DNA of 64,000 bases from Imtechella halotolerans (GTDB lineage: Bacteria > Bacteroidota > Bacteroidia > Flavobacteriales > Flavobacteriaceae), in assembly GCF_028743515.2 (NCBI RefSeq), contig NZ_CP117969.2, positions 1,769,501 to 1,833,500 of the forward strand, read 5' to 3'. Numbering within the stretch: the stretch's first letter is position 1; every line of letters starts with the position of its first letter. The notes under the pieces were generated by a model. It made no database searches. It was not told where the DNA came from and was given only the letters and a program-made list of their open reading frames with translations. Made by a program: the position numbers and the translations under genes. Positions 50,963 to 60,065 of the stretch are shown piece after piece.

Positions 50963-51901
50963 ATGAAACAATTTTTATTAAATATAGTTGTTCTAACTTC
51001 CTTCTTAGTTAGTTGCAAGAATAAAGATATAGCAGTCAATTACACTTCAATTGAAGATAAAAGGAGTACTCGAATTGAACAACTAATCCAACACCTCCAA
51101 AATCCAAATGAAAAACACATTATGGTGGTGGCTCACAGAGCAGATTGGAGAAACGCTCCAGAGAATTCAATACAAGCCATACAGAGCTGTATAGATATGG
51201 GAGTAGATATGGTTGAAATTGACGTTCAACAAACTAAAGACGGACATTTAGTCCTAATGCATGACAAAACTATTGATCGCACAACTACTGGAAAAGGAAT
51301 GGTTAGTGATTGGACATTGGATAGTTTAAAAACACTAAGATTGAAAGACGGGTTGGGAATACCAACTCAAAATCAAATACCTACATTGGAGGAAGCTTTA
51401 TTAGTATGTAAAAATAAAATTTTAGTCAATCTAGATAAGAGTTACCCCATTTTTGACAAATGTTTTGAAATTGCTCAACGTACAGAAACACTCGATCATA
51501 TTATTATTAAGGGAGTAAAAACAAAAAATGAGGTTCAAGATCAATTTGGAAAATACTTGGACAAGGTGCATTTTATGCCAATTGTTAGACTCTCGGATGC
51601 TAACTCAAGACAGGTTATTAATGAGTATCTTAATGAACAAAAACCACCTATAGCTTTTGAATTTACAGTTCCTCAAGACACAATTTCCTTAATTAAGGAT
51701 TTTGGACATATACGATCTAAAGGCTCAAGTATTTGGGTAAATTCTTTATGGCCCCAACATAATGGAGGTCATGACGATGAAAAAGCGTATTTAGACCCTT
51801 CGATCTATGAGTGGTTTATACGCAACAATGTCAATATGATACAAACAGACAGACCCCAACTTTTGTTAGAGTATTTACGCAAACGAGGTTACCATAATTA
51901 A
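50963..51901 (+). CDS. Glycerophosphodiester phosphodiesterase lipoprotein 1 (SusCD-linked)
   Basis: 312 residues with a lipobox (FLVSC, Cys 18). The GDPD fold carries VAHRADWRNAPENS (catalytic His and Arg, about residue 57), VDMVEIDVQQTKDGHLVLMHDKTIDRTT with the metal Glu and Asp and the second His (about 95-110). It splits glycerophosphodiesters to glycerol 3-phosphate and an alcohol. The usual HRG is HRA here. It is 14 bases after SusD, so one transcript. It is paralogous to the next gene. Confidence 0.9.
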   Translation: MKQFLLNIVVLTSFLVSCKNKDIAVNYTSIEDKRSTRIEQLIQHLQNPNEKHIMVVAHRADWRNAPENSIQAIQSCIDMGVDMVEIDVQQTKDGHLVLMHDKTIDRTTTGKGMVSDWTLDSLKTLRLKDGLGIPTQNQIPTLEEALLVCKNKILVNLDKSYPIFDKCFEIAQRTETLDHIIIKGVKTKNEVQDQFGKYLDKVHFMPIVRLSDANSRQVINEYLNEQKPPIAFEFTVPQDTISLIKDFGHIRSKGSSIWVNSLWPQHNGGHDDEKAYLDPSIYEWFIRNNVNMIQTDRPQLLLEYLRKRGYHN

Positions 51902-51911
51902 AGTATTCAAT

Positions 51912-51942
51912 TTAAAGCGTAACAGTTCATGTTACGCTTTAA
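51912..51942 (+). terminator. Stem-loop between the two phosphodiesterase genes
   Basis: A perfect 12-bp stem TTAAAGCGTAAC/GTTACGCTTTAA with a 7-base loop lies 10 bases after the first stop. It has no T run, so it may be an intra-operon stabilising or processing element as much as a terminator. It spans the ATG at 51929, which argues against that ATG as the start of the second gene. Confidence 0.5.
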
Positions 51943-51964
51943 CACACTTAAAATCAACAAAAAA

Positions 51965-52894
51965 ATGAAGAAAAAAACAGTATTATTTTCTTTTGTCACT
52001 ATAATTTTTCTAAGTCTTTTATCCGCACAGAAATCCCCCTTACAACAAAAAAAGACAGACCAAATTCTTTATCAAATAAAGAATCCTTCTAAGAATACTA
52101 TTTTAGTAGTTTCACATAGAGGTGATTGGCGATATGCACCTGAAAACAGTCTCCTAGCAATACAACGTTGTATCGATTTAGGTGTTGATATTGTAGAAAT
52201 TGATGTTCAACTTACAAAAGATGGTCATTTGGTTGCCATGCATGACAAGACTGTTGATCGCACTACTAATGGTAAAGGATATGTCAGCGAGATGACGCTT
52301 TCTGAAATAAAAGAATTAAGATTAAAAAATGCCTGCGGTGTTCGAGGATCAAAACAACAGGTACCAACCTTAAAAGAGATTATGCTTTTGACCAAGAATA
52401 AAATTATGGTGAATCTAGACAAGGTTGAAGGAATAACTGTAAAAGAGGCTTATGAAATTTTAAAAGAAACTGGCACCTTACAACAAGTCATTTTTAAGGG
52501 AAGGGAGTCAGTAGACTTTATGATGAATAAATATGGAGGTATTATGAAGGAAATTATATACATGCCTATTATTATAGATAATGTAACGGATGCCTCATAC
52601 TATGTAGACACCTACAACAAAGCCTTAAATCCTGTAATGTATGAAGTCACTTTCACAGATGTAGACACCGACAATTTCAAACAAATCAAGCGTCTTAATA
52701 GCAAGGGAATTTCAGTATTAACTATTCCATTATGGGATTCACTGGTTGCTGGAAGAACAGACGAACTTGCTCTTATTGAAGGTCCAGATGCAGCTTGGGG
52801 ATGGCTCATAAAACAAGGTACAAATGCCATAATGACCGATAGACCAGAGGAATTATTAGACTATCTTAAAAGTAAAGGACTTCGAAATTTCTAG
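51965..52894 (+). CDS. Glycerophosphodiester phosphodiesterase 2, secreted (SusCD-linked)
   Basis: 309 residues from the ATG at 51965, with a signal peptide (about 1-19, ending SLLSAQ) and no lipobox, unlike its neighbour. VVSHRGDWRYAPENSL, VDIVEIDVQLTKDGHLVAMHDKTVDRTT carry the full catalytic set. The C-terminus (AIMTDRPEELLDYL) follows the same pattern as the first copy. The two are tandem duplicates with different targeting. Periplasmic or released. Ends in a bidirectional terminator 71 bases later. Confidence 0.9.
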   Translation: MKKKTVLFSFVTIIFLSLLSAQKSPLQQKKTDQILYQIKNPSKNTILVVSHRGDWRYAPENSLLAIQRCIDLGVDIVEIDVQLTKDGHLVAMHDKTVDRTTNGKGYVSEMTLSEIKELRLKNACGVRGSKQQVPTLKEIMLLTKNKIMVNLDKVEGITVKEAYEILKETGTLQQVIFKGRESVDFMMNKYGGIMKEIIYMPIIIDNVTDASYYVDTYNKALNPVMYEVTFTDVDTDNFKQIKRLNSKGISVLTIPLWDSLVAGRTDELALIEGPDAAWGWLIKQGTNAIMTDRPEELLDYLKSKGLRNF

Positions 52895-53008: not shown

Positions 53009-54469
53009 CTACTTATTGTCCAATGTTTGAAATTTCATTTCAATAGCAACTACTGAAGCCTCCAATTCATCCTTATTCATTGAGGCAAATCCAAATCGAA
53101 ATGCATTTTGTTCTTCAAATATTTTTGGTAATTGAACTCGTGGAATTTCTTGAAGTAAACCTACCGAATATTGAGGTTTAATTTGCACCCAAATAGCCAT
53201 GCCTCCCGTTGGTAATTTATAATCAATGTATTTAGCTAACCTACTCTTAAGTAGTACATCTAAATAGTCTCTACGGCTTTGATAAATTTTCTTAGCCTTT
53301 TTCACATGTCTTTTTAACTCCCCATTATTGATCAGAGTGGCAAGAGAATTTTGCATATATCCATCCCCCCCTACATCTATTAGTTTTCTTAATGCAATAC
53401 ATTGATTTATAAAATTTGTGGATGCAATCATAAAACCTATCCGTAATGAAGGGTCCAATATTTTAGAAAAAGACCCTATATACAATACATTTCCACAATG
53501 ATTGGCGCTTGCCAAAGGTAAATATGGTGATGAAGAATAGTGATAATCATAGTCATAATCATCTTCAATAATAGCAAATGAAAACTCTTTAGACAACTCC
53601 AAAAGCTTTATTCTGCGTTCCACACTTAAGGTCGCTGTAGTTGGATAATGATGATGAGGAATTACATAAACGGCTGTTATTTCATACTTCCTGCAGTGTT
53701 CTTCAACTTCATTGATATCTAATCCATTTTCGTCCACCTTAACTTCAATTAGAGAAGCCCCCGTCTCCAAAAAAGTTGCATTGGCAGCTTTATAATTTGG
53801 ATTTCCAACAATGATAGTGGATCCTTCATTCAAAAGCAATTGCGAAGCCAGATATATGCTCATCTGCGCTCCATGAGTAATTACAATATTTTGTTCAGTA
53901 ATATTTAATCCCCTTGTTTCTGCCAAATACTGAACCAATTCTTTTCTCAATGGAATAGTTCCCTGCTCTATCCCTATATGAGCATTTCTAATGGCATACT
54001 TTCTCCCCGTAGAAGAACGGAAATTCTTCAACAATTCATCAATAGGTGATAATCGAACATCAGGATAGCCGTCATCAATTATTAATTCTAGAAAGCTGCC
54101 ATTTTTCAATCCTAACAAATTCTCTGATGCTATTCGTTTAAAAGGAAGATCAAAAGAGTTTTTATAAGGGGTTTCATTAGTTCCTACTTTCCACCCTTGT
54201 GGTTTTAATTGTGGTATTTGATCTGATACATACACATGTTTTCTAGGAATGATAACAATCCAGTCTTGGGAATAAAGTTCTTCATAGGCAGCAATGACAG
54301 TCTTTCGATGCACTCCTAACTTCTGAGACAAATCACGACTTCCAGGCAGCTTCATACTAGCCTTCAGTATCCCAGTTTGTATAGCATTAATAATTGAAAA
54401 AGCTATTTGCTTATAAACAGGTATATTACTTTTTCTATCTAAAATGACAATATGTTCAAACGGAAGCAT
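53009..54469 (-). CDS. MocR-family regulator (GntR wHTH + aminotransferase-like domain)
   Basis: 486 residues. An N-terminal winged helix (about 10-85: IPVYKQIAFSIINAIQTGIL, LPGSRDLSQKLGVHRKTVIAAYEELYSQ) precedes a fold-type I aminotransferase domain (about 110-480) with HGAQMSIYLASQLLL, the Asp of IIEDDYDYDYH, and the PLP Lys in YIGSFSKILDPSLRIGFM. MocR regulators sense PLP or an amino compound and usually control a neighbouring gene; PdxR is the best known. It is divergent from a GNAT gene with a shared 79-base intergenic region. Confidence 0.9.
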   Translation of the reverse strand: MLPFEHIVILDRKSNIPVYKQIAFSIINAIQTGILKASMKLPGSRDLSQKLGVHRKTVIAAYEELYSQDWIVIIPRKHVYVSDQIPQLKPQGWKVGTNETPYKNSFDLPFKRIASENLLGLKNGSFLELIIDDGYPDVRLSPIDELLKNFRSSTGRKYAIRNAHIGIEQGTIPLRKELVQYLAETRGLNITEQNIVITHGAQMSIYLASQLLLNEGSTIIVGNPNYKAANATFLETGASLIEVKVDENGLDINEVEEHCRKYEITAVYVIPHHHYPTTATLSVERRIKLLELSKEFSFAIIEDDYDYDYHYSSSPYLPLASANHCGNVLYIGSFSKILDPSLRIGFMIASTNFINQCIALRKLIDVGGDGYMQNSLATLINNGELKRHVKKAKKIYQSRRDYLDVLLKSRLAKYIDYKLPTGGMAIWVQIKPQYSVGLLQEIPRVQLPKIFEEQNAFRFGFASMNKDELEASVVAIEMKFQTLDNK

Positions 54470-54472
54470 TCT

Positions 54473-54513
54473 GGACTACTTAATGAGTTAAATCTGGAAC
54501 ACAAAGGTAGTCC
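54473..54513. promoter_or_regulatory. Inverted repeat in the MocR/GNAT intergenic region (possible operator)
   Basis: GGACTAC at 54473-54479 and GTAGTCC at 54507-54513 are an exact 7-base inverted repeat, 27 bases apart, in the shared promoter region. A TAATG follows each arm on the same side. The second arm overlaps the -7 box of MocR, so bound protein would block its own transcription. Confidence 0.45.
54502..54509 (-). promoter_or_regulatory. Candidate -7 promoter box for the MocR gene
   Basis: Minus strand TACCTTTG matches TAnnTTTG, 33 bases before the ATG at 54469, and overlaps the second arm of the inverted repeat. Confidence 0.45.
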
Positions 54514-54523
54514 TAATGTTTTC

Positions 54524-54531
54524 TAGTTTTG
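54524..54531 (+). promoter_or_regulatory. Candidate -7 promoter box for the GNAT gene
   Basis: TAGTTTTG matches TAnnTTTG, 17 bases before the ATG at 54549. Divergent from the MocR box 15 bases away. Confidence 0.45.
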
Positions 54532-54548: not shown

Positions 54549-54995
54549 ATGTGTTACACTATCAAAAAAGCAAGTCTAGAAGATCTGGATGAAACTGCCG
54601 AACTTTTTGATCTTTACCGTATTTTTTATCGTCAAAAATCTGATTTAGAAAAGGGGAAAGAATTTCTAAAAGAAAGAATACTAAATGGTGAATCAGATAT
54701 ATTTCTTGCAGAAATAGACAATAAAGCAGTTGGCTTTGTCCAGCTATATAAATTATTCCACTACACCAAGCTCCAAAAACAGTGGTTACTAAGTGACTTA
54801 TTTGTTCATCCCGACTTTAGAGGTAGAGGAATATCTATTGGCTTAATTAATGAAAGTAAAAATTGGTGTGAGTTAACTGGTGCCTGTGGTTTAATGCTTG
54901 AAACTGAAAAAACGAATACCATTGGAAATACCTTATATCCAAGATGTGGTTTTAGTTATGATGGTACGCATAATTATTACCACTGGTGGAGATAA
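54549..54995 (+). CDS. GNAT-family N-acetyltransferase
   Basis: 148 residues. The fold is complete: LFDLYRIFYRQKSD, the acetyl-CoA motif LSDLFVHPDFRGRGISIGLI (about residues 82-101, with the R/Q-x-x-G-x-G/A signature RGRGIS), and C-terminal GFSYDGTHNYYHW. Substrate unknown. Its position opposite a MocR gene, with a shared promoter region, suggests the MocR protein controls it. Confidence 0.88.
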   Translation: MCYTIKKASLEDLDETAELFDLYRIFYRQKSDLEKGKEFLKERILNGESDIFLAEIDNKAVGFVQLYKLFHYTKLQKQWLLSDLFVHPDFRGRGISIGLINESKNWCELTGACGLMLETEKTNTIGNTLYPRCGFSYDGTHNYYHWWR

Positions 54996-55034: not shown

Positions 55035-55105
55035 GGTCGGATGGCTGAGTGGATAGGCTAAGGCATGCAATACCTTATAGAATGGTTCAATTCCATTTCC
55101 GACCT
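55035..55105 (+). tRNA. tRNA-Cys(GCA)-like gene, diverged
   Basis: 71 bases fold as a tRNA. Acceptor GGTCGGA/TCCGACC (7 bp), D arm GCT/GGC (G-T pair), anticodon stem AAGGC/ACCTT with a C31-A39 mismatch around loop ATGCAAT (U33, anticodon GCA at 55067-55069), variable ATAG, T stem AATGG/CCATT with loop TTCAATT (R57, A58), discriminator T. No CCA is encoded. Typical flavobacterial tRNA-Cys has the same layout but a perfect anticodon stem and T loop TTCGAAT, so this is either a second, diverged copy or a decaying one. It sits between GNAT and YggS, 22 bases from the latter's ATG. Confidence 0.68.
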
Positions 55106-55127
55106 CATTTAATTGTACTTAAAGCTT

Positions 55128-55868
55128 ATGACAAAAAACGAGACAATTATTAGTAACCTTCAAGACACCCTTGAGAGAATTAAAAAAGTGTGTGCTACTA
55201 TAGGTAGAAACCCAGAAGAAATTAAACTCCTACTAGCCACAAAAACAGTACCTGCTGAATATATTCAAACAGCCATACAAAGTGGGCAATTGCTAATTGC
55301 GGAAAATAAAGTGCAGGAACTTAAAGAAAAATATGACCACTTAAAAAACATCTACCATATTAATCACTTTATAGGTCACCTTCAAACCAATAAAATAAAA
55401 GACATTTTACGATATGATGTTAGTTGCATTCAATCTCTTGACCGGTTAGATTTGGCTAAAAAACTTCAGCAAAGATTATTGTTTGAGAACAAAACAATGG
55501 AAGTACTTATACAGGTAAACACTTCTAATGAGGAAAGCAAATTTGGTGTACGACCTGCAATGGTCACAGAACTAGTTCAAGAGGTAGCACACCTTGATAG
55601 ATTAAAAATTAAAGGATTAATGACCATTGGGTTGTTTAGTGCTGAGCCAGAAAAAGTGCGAGGATGTTTTAGATTATTAAAAACTATTCAACAAGAAATT
55701 AATGCACTTCAAATTCCAAATGTGAATTTAAAAGAACTTTCAATGGGTATGAGTAATGATTTAGAAATTGCCATTGAAGAAGGAGCCACAATAGTTAGAG
55801 TTGGAACAGCCATTTTTGGTAAAAGAATATATCCAGATAGCTACTATTGGAATGAGCATGGCAGATAA
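55128..55868 (+). CDS. PLP homeostasis protein, YggS/PROSC family
   Basis: 246 residues from the ATG at 55128 (a TTG at 55113 is open but weak). The TIM-barrel shows the PLP lysine in [11 protein letters not shown] (about 41), GENKVQEL-type loop ([16 protein letters not shown]), [27 protein letters not shown] and the phosphate loop [28 protein letters not shown]. It binds PLP and buffers the pool. With a MocR regulator nearby, a shared PLP theme is plausible. Confidence 0.93.
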
Positions 55869-55883
55869 TTATGCCTTTTATAG

Positions 55884-56720
55884 TTATGAATTAGAGACTG
55901 CTTTTTGCAAAGCTGCAATATCAAATTTACCCATACTCATCATACATGAGCTTGCACTTGAATTTGTGGCTGGATCCTTCATTAAATCTTTTAAAATACT
56001 GGGGATAATTTGCCACCAGACTCCGTACCTATCTCTAACCCAACCACATTTACTTTCCTTTCCTTCCTTAGAAAAGGCATTCCAATAGGTATCTATTTCA
56101 AATTGAGTCTCACATTCTATAACAAACGAATTTCCTTCAGTAAAATCAAAATCATGCTTTTCTTCTCCGCCACTCATGGCATTAAATATATAATGATCCA
56201 ATTTAAATTGGGCAAATATAAGAGGTTGTCCACTACTAGGATATTCCATCAACTTAGTGCTATTAGAGAAAATGGTTGTATAAAAATCTACAGCCTCAGC
56301 CACTCTTGATTGTTTCTCATTCGTAAATAAAAAGGCAGGTACAATGCTTTGCACATTATTTATAGCATCTATATCTAATTGCCAACTCACACCATATTTA
56401 TCTTCAACCCAGGCATATTTAACACTCCAATCATAGGTATCTAAAGGCATTAGTACTTTCCCCCCCACTCTAAGGCTTTCATATAAATTTAAAATTTTCT
56501 TTTCATCATTCCCACAATAAACAAAATATGAAACAGCAGGTGAAGGACTATATCTATCTCCTCCATTTAACCCCATAAACTTAACTCCATAAATTTGAAA
56601 TGTTACTACACGCTCATTTGTATCAATGAACTGAACATCTCCAAAAACATCCTTGTAAAACAAGACTGCTTCTTTGGCTGTATTATTAAACCATATACAA
56701 GGATAAATTGAACTATTCAT
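55884..56720 (-). CDS. Two-domain VOC (PhnB-like) protein
   Basis: 278 residues, two tandem glyoxalase-fold modules (about 1-125 and 126-265). Module 1 has IYPCIWFNNTAKEAVLFYKDVFGD, WVEDKYGVSWQLD; module 2 has IVPAFLFTNEKQSRVAEAVDFY, WVRDRYGVWWQIIP. These are the marks of the PhnB/'3-demethylubiquinone methyltransferase' family, which are mostly uncharacterised. Cytosolic. Last of the long minus-strand cluster; the YggS stop is 15 bases away, convergent. Confidence 0.85.
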   Translation of the reverse strand: MNSSIYPCIWFNNTAKEAVLFYKDVFGDVQFIDTNERVVTFQIYGVKFMGLNGGDRYSPSPAVSYFVYCGNDEKKILNLYESLRVGGKVLMPLDTYDWSVKYAWVEDKYGVSWQLDIDAINNVQSIVPAFLFTNEKQSRVAEAVDFYTTIFSNSTKLMEYPSSGQPLIFAQFKLDHYIFNAMSGGEEKHDFDFTEGNSFVIECETQFEIDTYWNAFSKEGKESKCGWVRDRYGVWWQIIPSILKDLMKDPATNSSASSCMMSMGKFDIAALQKAVSNS

Positions 56721-56747
56721 CTTTTAATATTTAAAACCTATTTGACT

Positions 56748-57809
56748 TTAATTTTGCGGAAAATTAACGTCGGCCTTTACTTCCTCTATTTGCAACATAT
56801 GACGAACTGTGTGTCCTGGAATAAACAAAGCGAACTGATAAGCATCTACTGCTCCAAAGGGAGCATCCAAAATTCGATTTCTTAACTGCTCTTCTGTAAA
56901 TGTATTCAGATAGGAAATAATCTCATCATTCTTATTTTTTAGTTGATTTAATCGGCCCCTCACATCTATAGCAGTTGTTGAAGGCTGCATTGCTTCCGGA
57001 GCTTGTGCCTTTTTCTCTCTATTGGACATTGCACTTTTAATATCTTCATCCTTCATTTTCAACTCTGCTTTACGCTCAGGATTTTCTTCCGCATTTAAAG
57101 CCTTCTTCTCATACTCAAATAGTTCAGGAGCCGTAATTGCCAAATGTTCCACACATTGAGCTATGGACCACCTATCTTTATGAGGCTTAAAATTAAGCTG
57201 AGATTCACTAAGTCCTGCTATAGACTTTAATAGATTTTCGTATGTTTCTCTATAATATCCAGCCAATTCTTGCATACTTGTTTTAGGACTTTTTTGAGCC
57301 TCTACTGCCTTTTTAAGGTTCTGAGTTCCTATTACAAAATCTTTATTCATATCCATAAAAAGTCCCATAAGATTCCATGGATAAGGAGACTTACCAATTA
57401 CTCCCCAAGTTACCTCAGTTTGGCTTGGGCCTAGTTCCTTTAAATGAAAATACCCTTTGGCAGGTGGGCCAAAACCAAAATCTAAAGAAGAAATAACAGA
57501 ATCATTAGCAGTTAGGGAAGTTATTGTTTGAGAACCATTTCCTACTACATCACTTACCCATTTAAAGGTATAACCCGAAGTGCCGTCTATGCCCTCTGAG
57601 GAGGTTTTCATGTTTGGATCCATCTGAAACCAAACACCAAAATTTTCTTGATTATCGAGATATTTCACATAATCATAAACTTCTTGAACGGGCTTATTAA
57701 TCTTTACCGTATTTTCTCCTTTAAATTCATTAGAAACAAACAATGCCATAATCAAAGGAATCGCTATAATAACTAGCAATACAATTAAAATTTTTTTAAG
57801 GATTTTCAT
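56748..57809 (-). CDS. SRPBCC (START-like) and DinB domain fusion protein
   Basis: 353 residues from the ATG at 57809. An N-terminal membrane helix (about 1-25, ILIVLLVIIAIPLIMALFVS), then a SRPBCC/polyketide-cyclase-like domain (about 32-172: INKPVQEVYDYVKYLDNQENFG), then a DinB four-helix domain (about 178-345: YYRETYENLLKSIAGLSESQLN, CVEHLAITAPELFEYEK, IPGHTVRHMLQIEEV) with His ligands. The reading frame passes smoothly from one to the other. It is likely anchored at the inner membrane. Fusion of these two is unusual. Confidence 0.8.
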   Translation of the reverse strand: MKILKKILIVLLVIIAIPLIMALFVSNEFKGENTVKINKPVQEVYDYVKYLDNQENFGVWFQMDPNMKTSSEGIDGTSGYTFKWVSDVVGNGSQTITSLTANDSVISSLDFGFGPPAKGYFHLKELGPSQTEVTWGVIGKSPYPWNLMGLFMDMNKDFVIGTQNLKKAVEAQKSPKTSMQELAGYYRETYENLLKSIAGLSESQLNFKPHKDRWSIAQCVEHLAITAPELFEYEKKALNAEENPERKAELKMKDEDIKSAMSNREKKAQAPEAMQPSTTAIDVRGRLNQLKNKNDEIISYLNTFTEEQLRNRILDAPFGAVDAYQFALFIPGHTVRHMLQIEEVKADVNFPQN

Positions 57810-57847
57810 AATGATAATTTTTAAAATCTTGATCAATTAAACGATGC

Positions 57848-58303
57848 TTATTCACATATTTCCTTAAGTTTTTCCAAGGCATTAGGATAGGTATTATTAA
57901 AATAATCGGCATACTCGTCTACTACATCTATTTCAACTAACACTGTAGTTACGCCATCCTTTTCTGAAAATGTATAATTCTCGTGACCTCCCACCCAACT
58001 ATCTACCTTCTCGCCTGAGATAATCTCCTTGGTTCCTTCTAAAATACCATATGGTCGAATAGAGATAAACTTATTAGGAATATGTTCTTCAATTTCAGCT
58101 ATCATCCCTCCTCTGTTACCATGCTCATCACTTCCAACAAAATAAATTTTTCCTCCCTTATTCCAACTACCTTCAAAGGTTGAGCTAGGGTTAAAAAGTG
58201 CTGTCCATGCTTCATATGTACTTTTATCTTCCAGACCCAACATGACAGTAAATACCTTCTCAACTGGTGCATTTATATGGATACTATACTGCTTCTTCTT
58301 CAT
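57848..58303 (-). CDS. SRPBCC (AHSA1-type) protein
   Basis: 151 residues. SRPBCC fold: IHINAPVEKVFTVMLGLEDKSTYEAWTALFNPSSTFEG, IYFVGSDEHGNRGGMIAEIEEHIPNKF, and a C-terminal helix. The family binds hydrophobic ligands; function unknown. It begins 7 bases after the stop of the next gene and ends 38 bases before the fusion gene. Confidence 0.85.
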   Translation of the reverse strand: MKKKQYSIHINAPVEKVFTVMLGLEDKSTYEAWTALFNPSSTFEGSWNKGGKIYFVGSDEHGNRGGMIAEIEEHIPNKFISIRPYGILEGTKEIISGEKVDSWVGGHENYTFSEKDGVTTVLVEIDVVDEYADYFNNTYPNALEKLKEICE

Positions 58304-58310
58304 GGCATCA

Positions 58311-58727
58311 TTAATTTGTTTCAGTATAACTTTTAAAATTATTTAGAATTGCCTGCCACCCTGCTTTTTGCATATCCAATGGGTTCTGGTCTTCAGCCTC
58401 AAAAGATGTGGTAACTTTTATTCCTCCATCTTCAACCGAAAACAACGTGATTACTTTTCTGCCATCCTCAAGAGTATAGCTCAGTTTATCATGAAGTGAA
58501 ACAACATCATAAATTGCCGTAAAATCAAATCCAAAACTTCCATCTTTAGCTTCCATCCTTGCAAAGTAAGTACCTCCTTCCCTAAGGTCATTGCTAGCTT
58601 CCGGACAATGCCAATCATAAGAAGCAAAATTCCAATTGACAATATGCTTTGGCTCAGTATAAAAATTCCACACTTTTTCCATAGAATTGATAATGTGAGC
58701 ATCTATCGTTATTATTTTATTTCCCAT
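58311..58727 (-). CDS. SRPBCC (AHSA1-type) protein
   Basis: 138 residues. Pattern TIDAHIINSMEKVWNFYTEPKHIVNWNFASYDWHCPEASNDLREGGTY and C-terminal WQAILNNFKSYTE, typical of AHSA1-type SRPBCC proteins (often annotated as activator of HSP90 ATPase 1-like). Cytosolic, ligand unknown. Starts 9 bases after the DUF1801 stop, in one operon. Confidence 0.87.
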   Translation of the reverse strand: MGNKIITIDAHIINSMEKVWNFYTEPKHIVNWNFASYDWHCPEASNDLREGGTYFARMEAKDGSFGFDFTAIYDVVSLHDKLSYTLEDGRKVITLFSVEDGGIKVTTSFEAEDQNPLDMQKAGWQAILNNFKSYTETN

Positions 58728-58736
58728 TTTTAAACT

Positions 58737-59132
58737 CTAATTTAAGCGTTCTAATTTTCCTTTTCTTTTTATGAGATTTTTATAATCCCATTGAATATCG
58801 ACTGCTTTTTCCAACCATCGTTGAACGTCAGAGTGTACAATTTCATCCTCTGATTCATAAAAAACAGAAGCGTCTTTATACTTATCACCTCGTACATTCA
58901 ATGTTATCTCATCAAAATCAGCACCACTCCAAAACATCAATCGGATCCCCTTCTTTTGTTTACTAAAACCAACAATTGGATTCCCGTCTATAAACCAAAC
59001 GGGATGCCCATGCCACACCTTTCTTTCCGTATATGTCAAATGCTCATCTATTAGAACTATTAATTGATTGCAAAGCGTTTTGTGAGAATCCTTTTCTAAG
59101 CCATCGATATAATTAAAAAATACATCAGCCAT
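58737..59132 (-). CDS. DUF1801 family protein
   Basis: 131 residues from the ATG at 59132 (the frame is open to a TTG at 59165). DUF1801 core: FNYIDGLEKDSHKTLCNQL, TERKVWHGHPVWFIDGNPIVGFSKQKKGIRLMFWSGADF. This small alpha-beta family is uncharacterised, often next to SRPBCC and VOC genes. Cytosolic. Confidence 0.83.
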   Translation of the reverse strand: MADVFFNYIDGLEKDSHKTLCNQLIVLIDEHLTYTERKVWHGHPVWFIDGNPIVGFSKQKKGIRLMFWSGADFDEITLNVRGDKYKDASVFYESEDEIVHSDVQRWLEKAVDIQWDYKNLIKRKGKLERLN

Positions 59133-59235
59133 AAAAATGTCTTTTAAAATCACAAGCCGAGACAAATACTATTCGTTTCTTTGATTGATAATGTATTCCC
59201 GAAATTACTATTTGAAAAGGCCTGTGATATTTCTT

Positions 59236-59655
59236 TTATTTAGCTGATGGAAAATTAATCATCCAGCAGACTCCAAATTTATCTACGAACGAGCCAAAAT
59301 AATCTCCCCAAAACATATCAGCCATTGGCATTTCAATAGTTCCCCCTTCCGAAAGACCATTAAACAACGTATCTGCTTCTTCTCGGGAATCTGGGGTAAT
59401 AGAAATATAGTTGTTATTACCTTGATTTAAAACATGTCCTTGGCTCGATATACAATCTGAAGCCATAAGATGTTGACTGTTTCCTATAGAGATAGCTACG
59501 TGCATAGCTCTATTTTTTTCCTCCTCAGATAGATTTTCAGTTCCTGGAGATTGACCCATTTTTTGTATGAAAAAATTTCCACCAAAAACACTGTGATAAA
59601 ATCGGAACGCTTCTTCAGCATTACCATCAAAATTAAGATAAGGATTAAGTGTCAT
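59236..59655 (-). CDS. VOC (PhnB-like) protein
   Basis: 139 residues from the ATG at 59655, where TLNPYLNFDGNAEEAFRFYHSVFGG begins, and ends with GSFVDKFGVCWMINF, the PhnB hallmark. A longer frame to 59736 starts with an unrelated leader. The fold is one glyoxalase module; probably dimeric. Confidence 0.87.
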   Translation of the reverse strand: MTLNPYLNFDGNAEEAFRFYHSVFGGNFFIQKMGQSPGTENLSEEEKNRAMHVAISIGNSQHLMASDCISSQGHVLNQGNNNYISITPDSREEADTLFNGLSEGGTIEMPMADMFWGDYFGSFVDKFGVCWMINFPSAK

Positions 59656-59678
59656 ATATATTACTTTACAAATTATTC

Positions 59679-60065
59679 CTACTCCATGGAGTGAAGCCCA
59701 AACGTATTGCCTTCTGAATCGATACAAATACTGCAAAAACCATGTTCACCGATACTCATTTTCGACGTTACAATTTTTCCACCCGCCTTTTCAACTCGAC
59801 CTTCTTCTTCACTACAATTAATACACGGAAAATATACAATAGTACTAGGACATGATTTTGTATTTACACTAGCACCTTTTACCTGTACTAAAGCACCACT
59901 GACGTCTTGCATATTTTCAGGCGAAGAAAAAGCAGCCATTATTACATCATCATCTATTGCTGGCATATGATAAAACTCTACCCCTAATACAGAAGAATAA
60001 AATTTCTTAGCTCTTTCTATATCTTCAGTATAGATTTCAAACCAACATATCACACTAGTATTCAT
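59679..60065 (-). CDS. VOC (glyoxalase-fold) protein
   Basis: 128 residues. ICWFEIYTEDIERAKKFYSSVLGVEF and the C-terminal CSICIDSEGNTFGLHSM match VOC-family hydroxylase/lyase-like proteins. Ends 23 bases before the next gene's ATG at 59655. Confidence 0.86.
   Translation of the reverse strand: MNTSVICWFEIYTEDIERAKKFYSSVLGVEFYHMPAIDDDVIMAAFSSPENMQDVSGALVQVKGASVNTKSCPSTIVYFPCINCSEEEGRVEKAGGKIVTSKMSIGEHGFCSICIDSEGNTFGLHSME

Follow-up and report, generated by a model that had tools for sequence, protein, structure and literature searches.

Why does the chromosome of Imtechella halotolerans carry, in addition to a canonical tRNA-Cys, a second and divergent tRNA-Cys gene, and why inside a gene cluster of metabolic type? 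The gene is found in the 64 kb stretch of DNA analysed here (the window), and the preliminary description of its letters had left two options for it, an additional Cys tRNA or an RNA resembling a tRNA, under selection or in decay.

Identity and fold of the second tRNA-Cys

The gene at 55035-55105 is a genuine second tRNA-Cys, here called Cys2.

Cys2, accessory tRNA-Cys (GCA): 55035..55105, plus strand; ARAGORN and Rfam; compared with 64 other U33 and 16 C33 tRNA-Cys sequences

ARAGORN called a single tRNA in the 64 kb window, a tRNA-Cys(GCA) at 55035-55106 on the plus strand, and Rfam matched 55035-55105 to RF00005 (E 7.8e-6); with 43.1 bits against a gathering threshold of 29 the gene passes the covariance model of the cloverleaf. 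Both programs bear out the complete cloverleaf with anticodon GCA seen in the preliminary description, and direct reading agrees with it on the stems. The acceptor stem (GGTCGGA/TCCGACC) is paired at 7 of 7 positions, the T stem (AATGG/CCATT) at 5 of 5 and the anticodon stem (AAGGC/ACCTT) at 4 of 5, the exception C31xA39 being also the one non-standard pair flagged by Rfam. The T loop TTCAATT had been taken as abnormal, which it is not: it fits TTCRANY, the usual T loop of tRNAs. Overlooked had been the ability of A32 and U38 to pair and the G/G at positions 15 and 48. Next to its GCA anticodon Cys2 carries U33, U73 and U51-A63, and CCA is not encoded in the gene. Folding of the single sequence recovered no cloverleaf, even for the canonical tRNA, and is uninformative on Cys2.

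Of the identity determinants of tRNA-Cys given in PMC9976931, U73, the GCA anticodon and G2-C71 are present in Cys2. The C3-G70 pair, named in the same source as a determinant in bacteria, is replaced by U3-A70; this does not rule out a tRNA-Cys, since canonical tRNA-Cys of other families (e.g. at locus L033) also have U3-A70. With the canonical bacterial tRNA-Cys(GCA) of RF00005 Cys2 shares the cloverleaf, GCA, A37, U73, G2-C71, GG18-19 and the TTCRANY loop. It differs by C31xA39 (31-39 is paired in 64 of 64 other U33 sequences), by the A32-U38 pair, U51-A63 and the D stem GCTG, and by its setting inside a gene cluster without a -7-type box of its own.

The search of the own genome (3.11 Mb, one contig) listed 43 tRNAs above the cut-off, of which Cys2 has the lowest score. 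Two are tRNA-Cys, and the higher-scoring one (61.5 bits; G000:C1:2503137-2503207) is canonical, in line with the earlier proposal of a further Cys tRNA, made there alongside that of a tRNA-like RNA. The canonical copy adjoins a gene that we take to be folB, and a gene to which we give the same name also precedes tRNA-Cys in three genomes from two other families.

Gene cluster and putative expression signals

Cys2 lies in a small, probably regulated operon with the following elements.

MocR-type regulator with GntR and aminotransferase domains (Pfam): 53009..54469, minus strand; divergent from the GNAT-tRNA-YggS unit
Putative MocR operator, CTGGACTAC ... CTGGA ... GTAGTCC, two direct boxes and one inverted: 54471..54513, plus strand; conserved in Flavobacterium supellecticarium
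TAnnTTTG -7-type promoter box TAGTTTTG before the GNAT gene: 54524..54531, plus strand
GNAT acetyltransferase, 148 aa: 54549..54995, plus strand; Pfam PF00583, 1.1e-14; 39 nt between gene end and tRNA
YggS-family PLP-binding protein, 246 aa: 55128..55868, plus strand; TIGR00044, 194.9 bits; start 22 nt past the tRNA

The nearest model for the regulator is NCBIfam PLP_TF_PdxR (303.8 bits, 16 under its cut-off of 320), and its counterpart in F. supellecticarium exceeds this cut-off with 332.3 bits. Among solved structures the best sequence match of the GNAT protein is a polyamine acetyltransferase (PDB 8a9o, E 2.6e-21). The YggS protein is the second of the genome and 36% identical to the first; we take YggS to be the COG325 of the regulon literature. 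RimI/RimL acetyltransferases, COG325 PLP-binding proteins and GuaA-type amidotransferases occur in PdxR regulons, and MocR motifs most often consist of two direct boxes and one inverted box (PMC5320631). Common to these regulons of PLP metabolism and to the window cluster are thus the divergent MocR-type regulator, the acetyltransferase, the YggS-type protein and the operator structure, and the difference is the tRNA gene inside the cluster; the term "tRNA" was not found in the main text of that paper.

The intergenic region between the MocR and GNAT genes aligns between the window and F. supellecticarium with a score of 29.5 (maximum 12.5 in 500 shuffles). Within it the operator has the same layout and mostly equal letters, and a TAnnTTTG box precedes GNAT in both; the CTGGACTAC-CTGGA-GTAGTCC layout was not found in the other seven loci scanned, G319 (a further genome of the family, see below) included. 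TAnnTTTG is the -7 promoter consensus of the Bacteroidetes. It occurs within 150 nt upstream of 27 out of 40 own tRNA genes with enough upstream sequence, Cys2 being among the 13 without it (background rate 36/426 and 58/426 window pieces on the two strands), and no terminator-like site was found between the genes of the cluster. Given that Cys2 is boxless, that operator and box before GNAT are conserved and that PdxR regulons offer parallels, Cys2 most likely depends on the MocR-controlled transcript.

No enzyme using Cys-tRNA was found near Cys2, and no aminoacyl-tRNA-dependent transferase, Fem-type included, is among its neighbours or among those of the accessory loci read. Elsewhere in the window, positions 50963-52894 hold a pair of adjoining, similar genes, presumably for glycerophosphodiester phosphodiesterases.

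Conservation of the locus

Close relatives of the window YggS (E <= 1e-60) are present in 6 out of 299 family genomes, own counted. A tRNA-Cys lies near the YggS gene in the own genome and in G319, and none was found near it in the other four (loci L081, L083-L085), nor in longer segments of G030 and G023. When all genome contigs were scanned with a sequence pattern, two matches emerged, one in F. supellecticarium and one in Aquiluna (L086), the latter dropped as chance as it was not called a tRNA. F. supellecticarium has MocR, GNAT, tRNA and YggS in the order and orientation of the window, with 117/147 residues identical in GNAT and 180/241 in YggS.

The order in G319 is GNAT, tRNA, AAA ATPase, YggS, and the cluster lies about 8 kb from a DUF4134 gene, which we take to encode a conjugation protein. 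The GNAT beside the tRNA in G319 differs from that of the window, with 24/88 residues identical. The AAA ATPase between tRNA and YggS (L088:4815-5543) is a relative of IetA, an anti-phage ATPase, though short (242 aa). The region L088:1552-9834 as a whole is a same-strand array of small genes, including GNATs, DinB, GATase, isochorismatase and, presumably, thioesterase and cupin genes, about 3-11 kb from the DUF4134 gene, and looks like mobile cargo. In kind it resembles the run of small minus-strand genes at 55884-60065 of the window, which we read as PhnB/glyoxalase-like, SRPBCC and DinB proteins. A reading of GNAT as a toxin acting on Cys-tRNA was dropped: no adjoining antitoxin gene was recognised, the best matches in solved structures are polyamine acetyltransferases, and the different GNAT next to the G319 tRNA weakens it further.

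The tRNAs of the window, F. supellecticarium and G319 are pairwise identical at 58-61 of 71 positions, the first two at 61/71. Between these two the surrounding genes are saturated at four-fold degenerate sites, with 25% identity (8/32 in GNAT, 13/52 in YggS, 27/107 in MocR), and the spacers flanking the tRNA match at shuffle level; with a second scorer the score of the 5' spacer was reached by 364 and that of the 3' spacer by 36 out of 500 shuffles. Since the tRNA has kept 61 of 71 positions despite this, Cys2 is, judged by these comparisons, maintained by purifying selection, and the decay suggested in the preliminary description is unlikely.

Accessory tRNA-Cys genes in the family

A covariance model, R1, was built from the three Cys2 sequences (window, F. 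supellecticarium, G319) and favours their traits, its sources scoring 99-100 bits and canonical relatives 65-83 bits. With R1, and with 28 genomes rescanned, at least one tRNA-Cys was found in 385 out of 397 family genomes, and 21 of these had more than one. Of the multi-copy genomes 17, belonging to 14 genera, have an extra gene that is Cys2-like in anticodon arm and T stem, and all 17 carry a canonical tRNA-Cys alongside (F. supellecticarium lies outside this check). The 17/397 carriers are a lower bound, because mostly 12 candidates per genome were scored and filters were strict, and the set was recognised in hindsight, by a model derived from members of the set itself. The remaining four multi-copy genomes (G117, G300, G720, G743) have duplicates or other types; further extra tRNA-Cys outside the set are a third copy in G319 and second copies in G268, G228, G481, G580 and G648. 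An order-wide R1 search of 395 genomes gave at least 95 bits in the own genome only, among the matches listed. An earlier tRNA-Cys sequence pattern had matched 168 out of 299 genomes and missed the Cys2 of G319. A C33 tRNA-Cys pattern, with the 3' strand of the D stem fixed and its 5' strand and bases 49-51 left free, found 10 genes in 9 out of 218 family genomes; all were already known from R1, and all ten have a standard 32-38 pair and U51.

Eighteen accessory sequences were compared. Positions 32-38 form a standard pair in 17 of them, by different letters (CG in nine, AU in three, UA in three, UG in two; CxA in the remaining one), and U51-A63 is present in 18/18. C33 is found in 16, the G319 copy included, and U33 in the window and F. 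supellecticarium only; the same two are the only ones with a mismatch at 31-39 (C-A and A-G, respectively). GG at 18-19 and a T loop starting with TTC are found in all 18. Acceptor and T-stem cells are paired in 99.2% and 100% of cases, with changes on both sides, and the covariation score over all 22 pairs is 0.535, compared with 0.212 in shuffles, in which relatedness is not maintained. The compensated pairs in which the preliminary description had seen an argument for selection thus recur in related genomes.

Sorting by base 33 alone avoids the circularity of a canonical group defined partly by an unpaired 32-38. With window and F. supellecticarium set aside, a standard 32-38 pair is present in 14 of 15 C33 sequences and in 1 of 64 U33 sequences, and U51-A63 in 15/15 and 5/64, respectively; 31-39 is paired in all 64. 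One C33 sequence, that of G235, could not be parsed and is in the set of 18 but outside the 15. The second tRNA-Cys of G268 (U33, U32-G38) is out of register in its T arm and was counted among the 64, outside the 18. Cys2 has the 32-38 pair (A-U) and U51-A63, and it is these two traits that place it in the set, not C33, since the window copy has U33.

Trees of 53-75 columns have little resolution, and in these a single origin of Cys2 with the other members was not rejected, with a p-AU of 0.237 on whole sequences. When the acceptor stem and positions 32, 33 and 38 were left out, a branch with support 53/0 split the accessory set from the rest. One row was excluded from all trees, and three further aberrant rows from the origin trees. 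The acceptor stem of Cys2, taken alone, is the same as in canonical tRNA-Cys of other families, which makes convergence or stem exchange conceivable, and either may lie behind the likeness to the C33 copies. Out of nine loci read, eight with an accessory gene, neighbours agree within a genus (G103/G311, G206/G713) and not between genera; a neighbour gene shared by the dispersed copies was thus dropped, as no common neighbour between genera was seen among these loci.

Other variants of tRNA-Cys were noted in passing. G240 has three successive tRNA-Cys genes (L192:1824-2246), one canonical and two different C33 copies. G319 and G117, which belong to one genus, hold a third kind, whose 5' end reads TGCC... 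and whose loop is canonical (L181:3810, L182:3600), and G720 has a very divergent tRNA-Cys-like gene beginning with GATAAGG (L190:2473). The second tRNA-Cys of G268, outside the set, is at L091:3568-3638, where U32-G38 is a possible pair. The Levitt pair 15-48 changes jointly, being G-C in 62/63 sequences of the canonical group and A-U in 10/15 C33 sequences.

Possible functions of Cys2

U33 is nearly universal in elongator tRNAs, and C33 removes the U-turn base and is expected to hurt decoding. The likeness of Cys2 to the extra, mostly non-U33 tRNA-Cys of its relatives suggests a special job over routine translation. We tentatively favour, with a confidence just short of even, the reading of Cys2 as a Cys-tRNA for a special purpose, produced when needed and little favoured by the ribosome. 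It would be cut from the GNAT-tRNA-YggS transcript under the MocR/PdxR-like regulator of PLP-binding type, CCA would be added to the excised tRNA, and CysRS would charge it; charging with cysteine is likely, as U73, G2-C71 and the GCA anticodon are kept. In a less certain step, the altered anticodon arm and T stem would cause Cys2 to be used poorly by EF-Tu and the ribosome. Cys2 would then supply Cys-tRNA for a purpose outside routine decoding, like the staphylococcal non-proteinogenic tRNA-Gly for the cell wall.

EF-Tu affinity is influenced by the T-stem pairs 49-65, 50-64 and 51-63 (PMC11231383). In Cys2 U51-A63 together with A50-U64 is suggestive of weak binding, and the 51-63 change as such may, by analogy, weaken it; A49-U65 is usual in canonical copies too and counts against a special EF-Tu role. 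According to PMC4052509 the staphylococcal tRNA-Gly, donors for FemXAB, have the EF-Tu pairs 49-65 and 51-63 altered, and Cys2 shares with them the condition of an extra isoacceptor beside a canonical one with altered T-stem pairs of this kind. It differs in that GG18-19, the replacement of which is a criterion for the staphylococcal non-proteinogenic tRNAs, is kept, in its Cys anticodon and in having no Fem-type partner among its neighbours. TglB is an enzyme that employs Cys-tRNA outside translation (PMC12945691). Cys2 may still decode, in view of U33 in the window and F. supellecticarium and of the GG18-19 and TTC T loop of all accessory sequences. The wider claim, that the family holds a class of non-proteinogenic Cys tRNAs (32-38 pair, U51-A63, mostly C33) which in the window, under a PLP-sensing MocR, would provide Cys-tRNA on demand for a non-ribosomal reaction, is possible but on the doubtful side.

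The main rival is that Cys2 translates UGU/UGC as a backup, its altered anticodon arm allowing it to evade anticodon nucleases or toxins by which the canonical copy is cleaved, an escape of the kind proposed for phage tRNAs; we consider this unlikely. The phage tRNAs of PMC10264068 bear loop mutations known to affect VapC cleavage, and Cys2 resembles them as an accessory tRNA with kept anticodon and a loop unlike that of the host. Retention of anticodon, A37 and U73 while loop letters differ, the U33 of the window copy and the position of the G319 copy, next to the IetA-like ATPase and not far from the DUF4134 gene, all fit such a decoder. Against it, the C33 carried by 16 of the 18 accessory sequences should hurt decoding, no recognised nuclease gene adjoins Cys2, and PADLOC was silent for all but one of the six proteins tested, the exception being the G319 AAA ATPase. 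Unlike the phage tRNAs, Cys2 is chromosomal, in a cluster of metabolic type and with no phage or plasmid relative found: there was no plasmid match and one short phage match at chance level, and two exact patterns were found in no viral contig. Phage or plasmid cargo was rejected for the same reasons, and all 25 plasmid relatives of YggS are less than 60% identical (best shown 45.9%).

That Cys2 is an ordinary redundant isodecoder, a spare tRNA-Cys adding dosage whose odd arm is tolerated drift, is distinctly unlikely. In its favour, Cys2 has kept U33, GG18-19, the T loop and the chief identity elements for Cys, and the G15/G48 of the window copy recurs in E. coli tRNA-Cys (PMC9976931). Against it stand a 32-38 pair kept through different pair types in 17/18 accessory against 1/64 other U33 sequences, and a place between two co-directional genes without a promoter-like box of its own. 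Very unlikely is a tRNA-like element of the mRNA, cut by RNase P and RNase Z to part the GNAT and YggS transcripts or sensing CysRS or the charging state; the co-directional genes at 39 and 22 nt without a terminator-like site would suit it, but processing alone needs neither anticodon nor U73, and the accessory genes elsewhere stand beside unrelated genes. A decaying or recently acquired pseudogene, to which the lowest score among 43 tRNAs and the broken anticodon-stem pair (a different one, at the same place, in F. supellecticarium) might point, is highly improbable and was rejected, as the tRNA is 61/71 identical against 25% identical four-fold sites and shuffle-level spacers, and the acceptor and T stems are fully paired in the window and nearly or fully so over the 18 accessory sequences.

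Significance

Among the papers listed by searches of open-access full text, with subscription journals mostly outside the search, none describes such an accessory tRNA-Cys class in its title or abstract opening. Extra, remodelled tRNAs have led elsewhere to cell-wall transferases (PMC4052509) and to anticodon-nuclease evasion (PMC10264068). The accessory set of the family is definable by simple letters, with one member in Flavobacterium supellecticarium, and in one lineage the accessory gene probably lies under a regulator of known ligand type. With a canonical copy beside the accessory one, and a locus that is probably regulated, one can test directly whether Cys-tRNA has a hidden use or the tRNA serves in defence.
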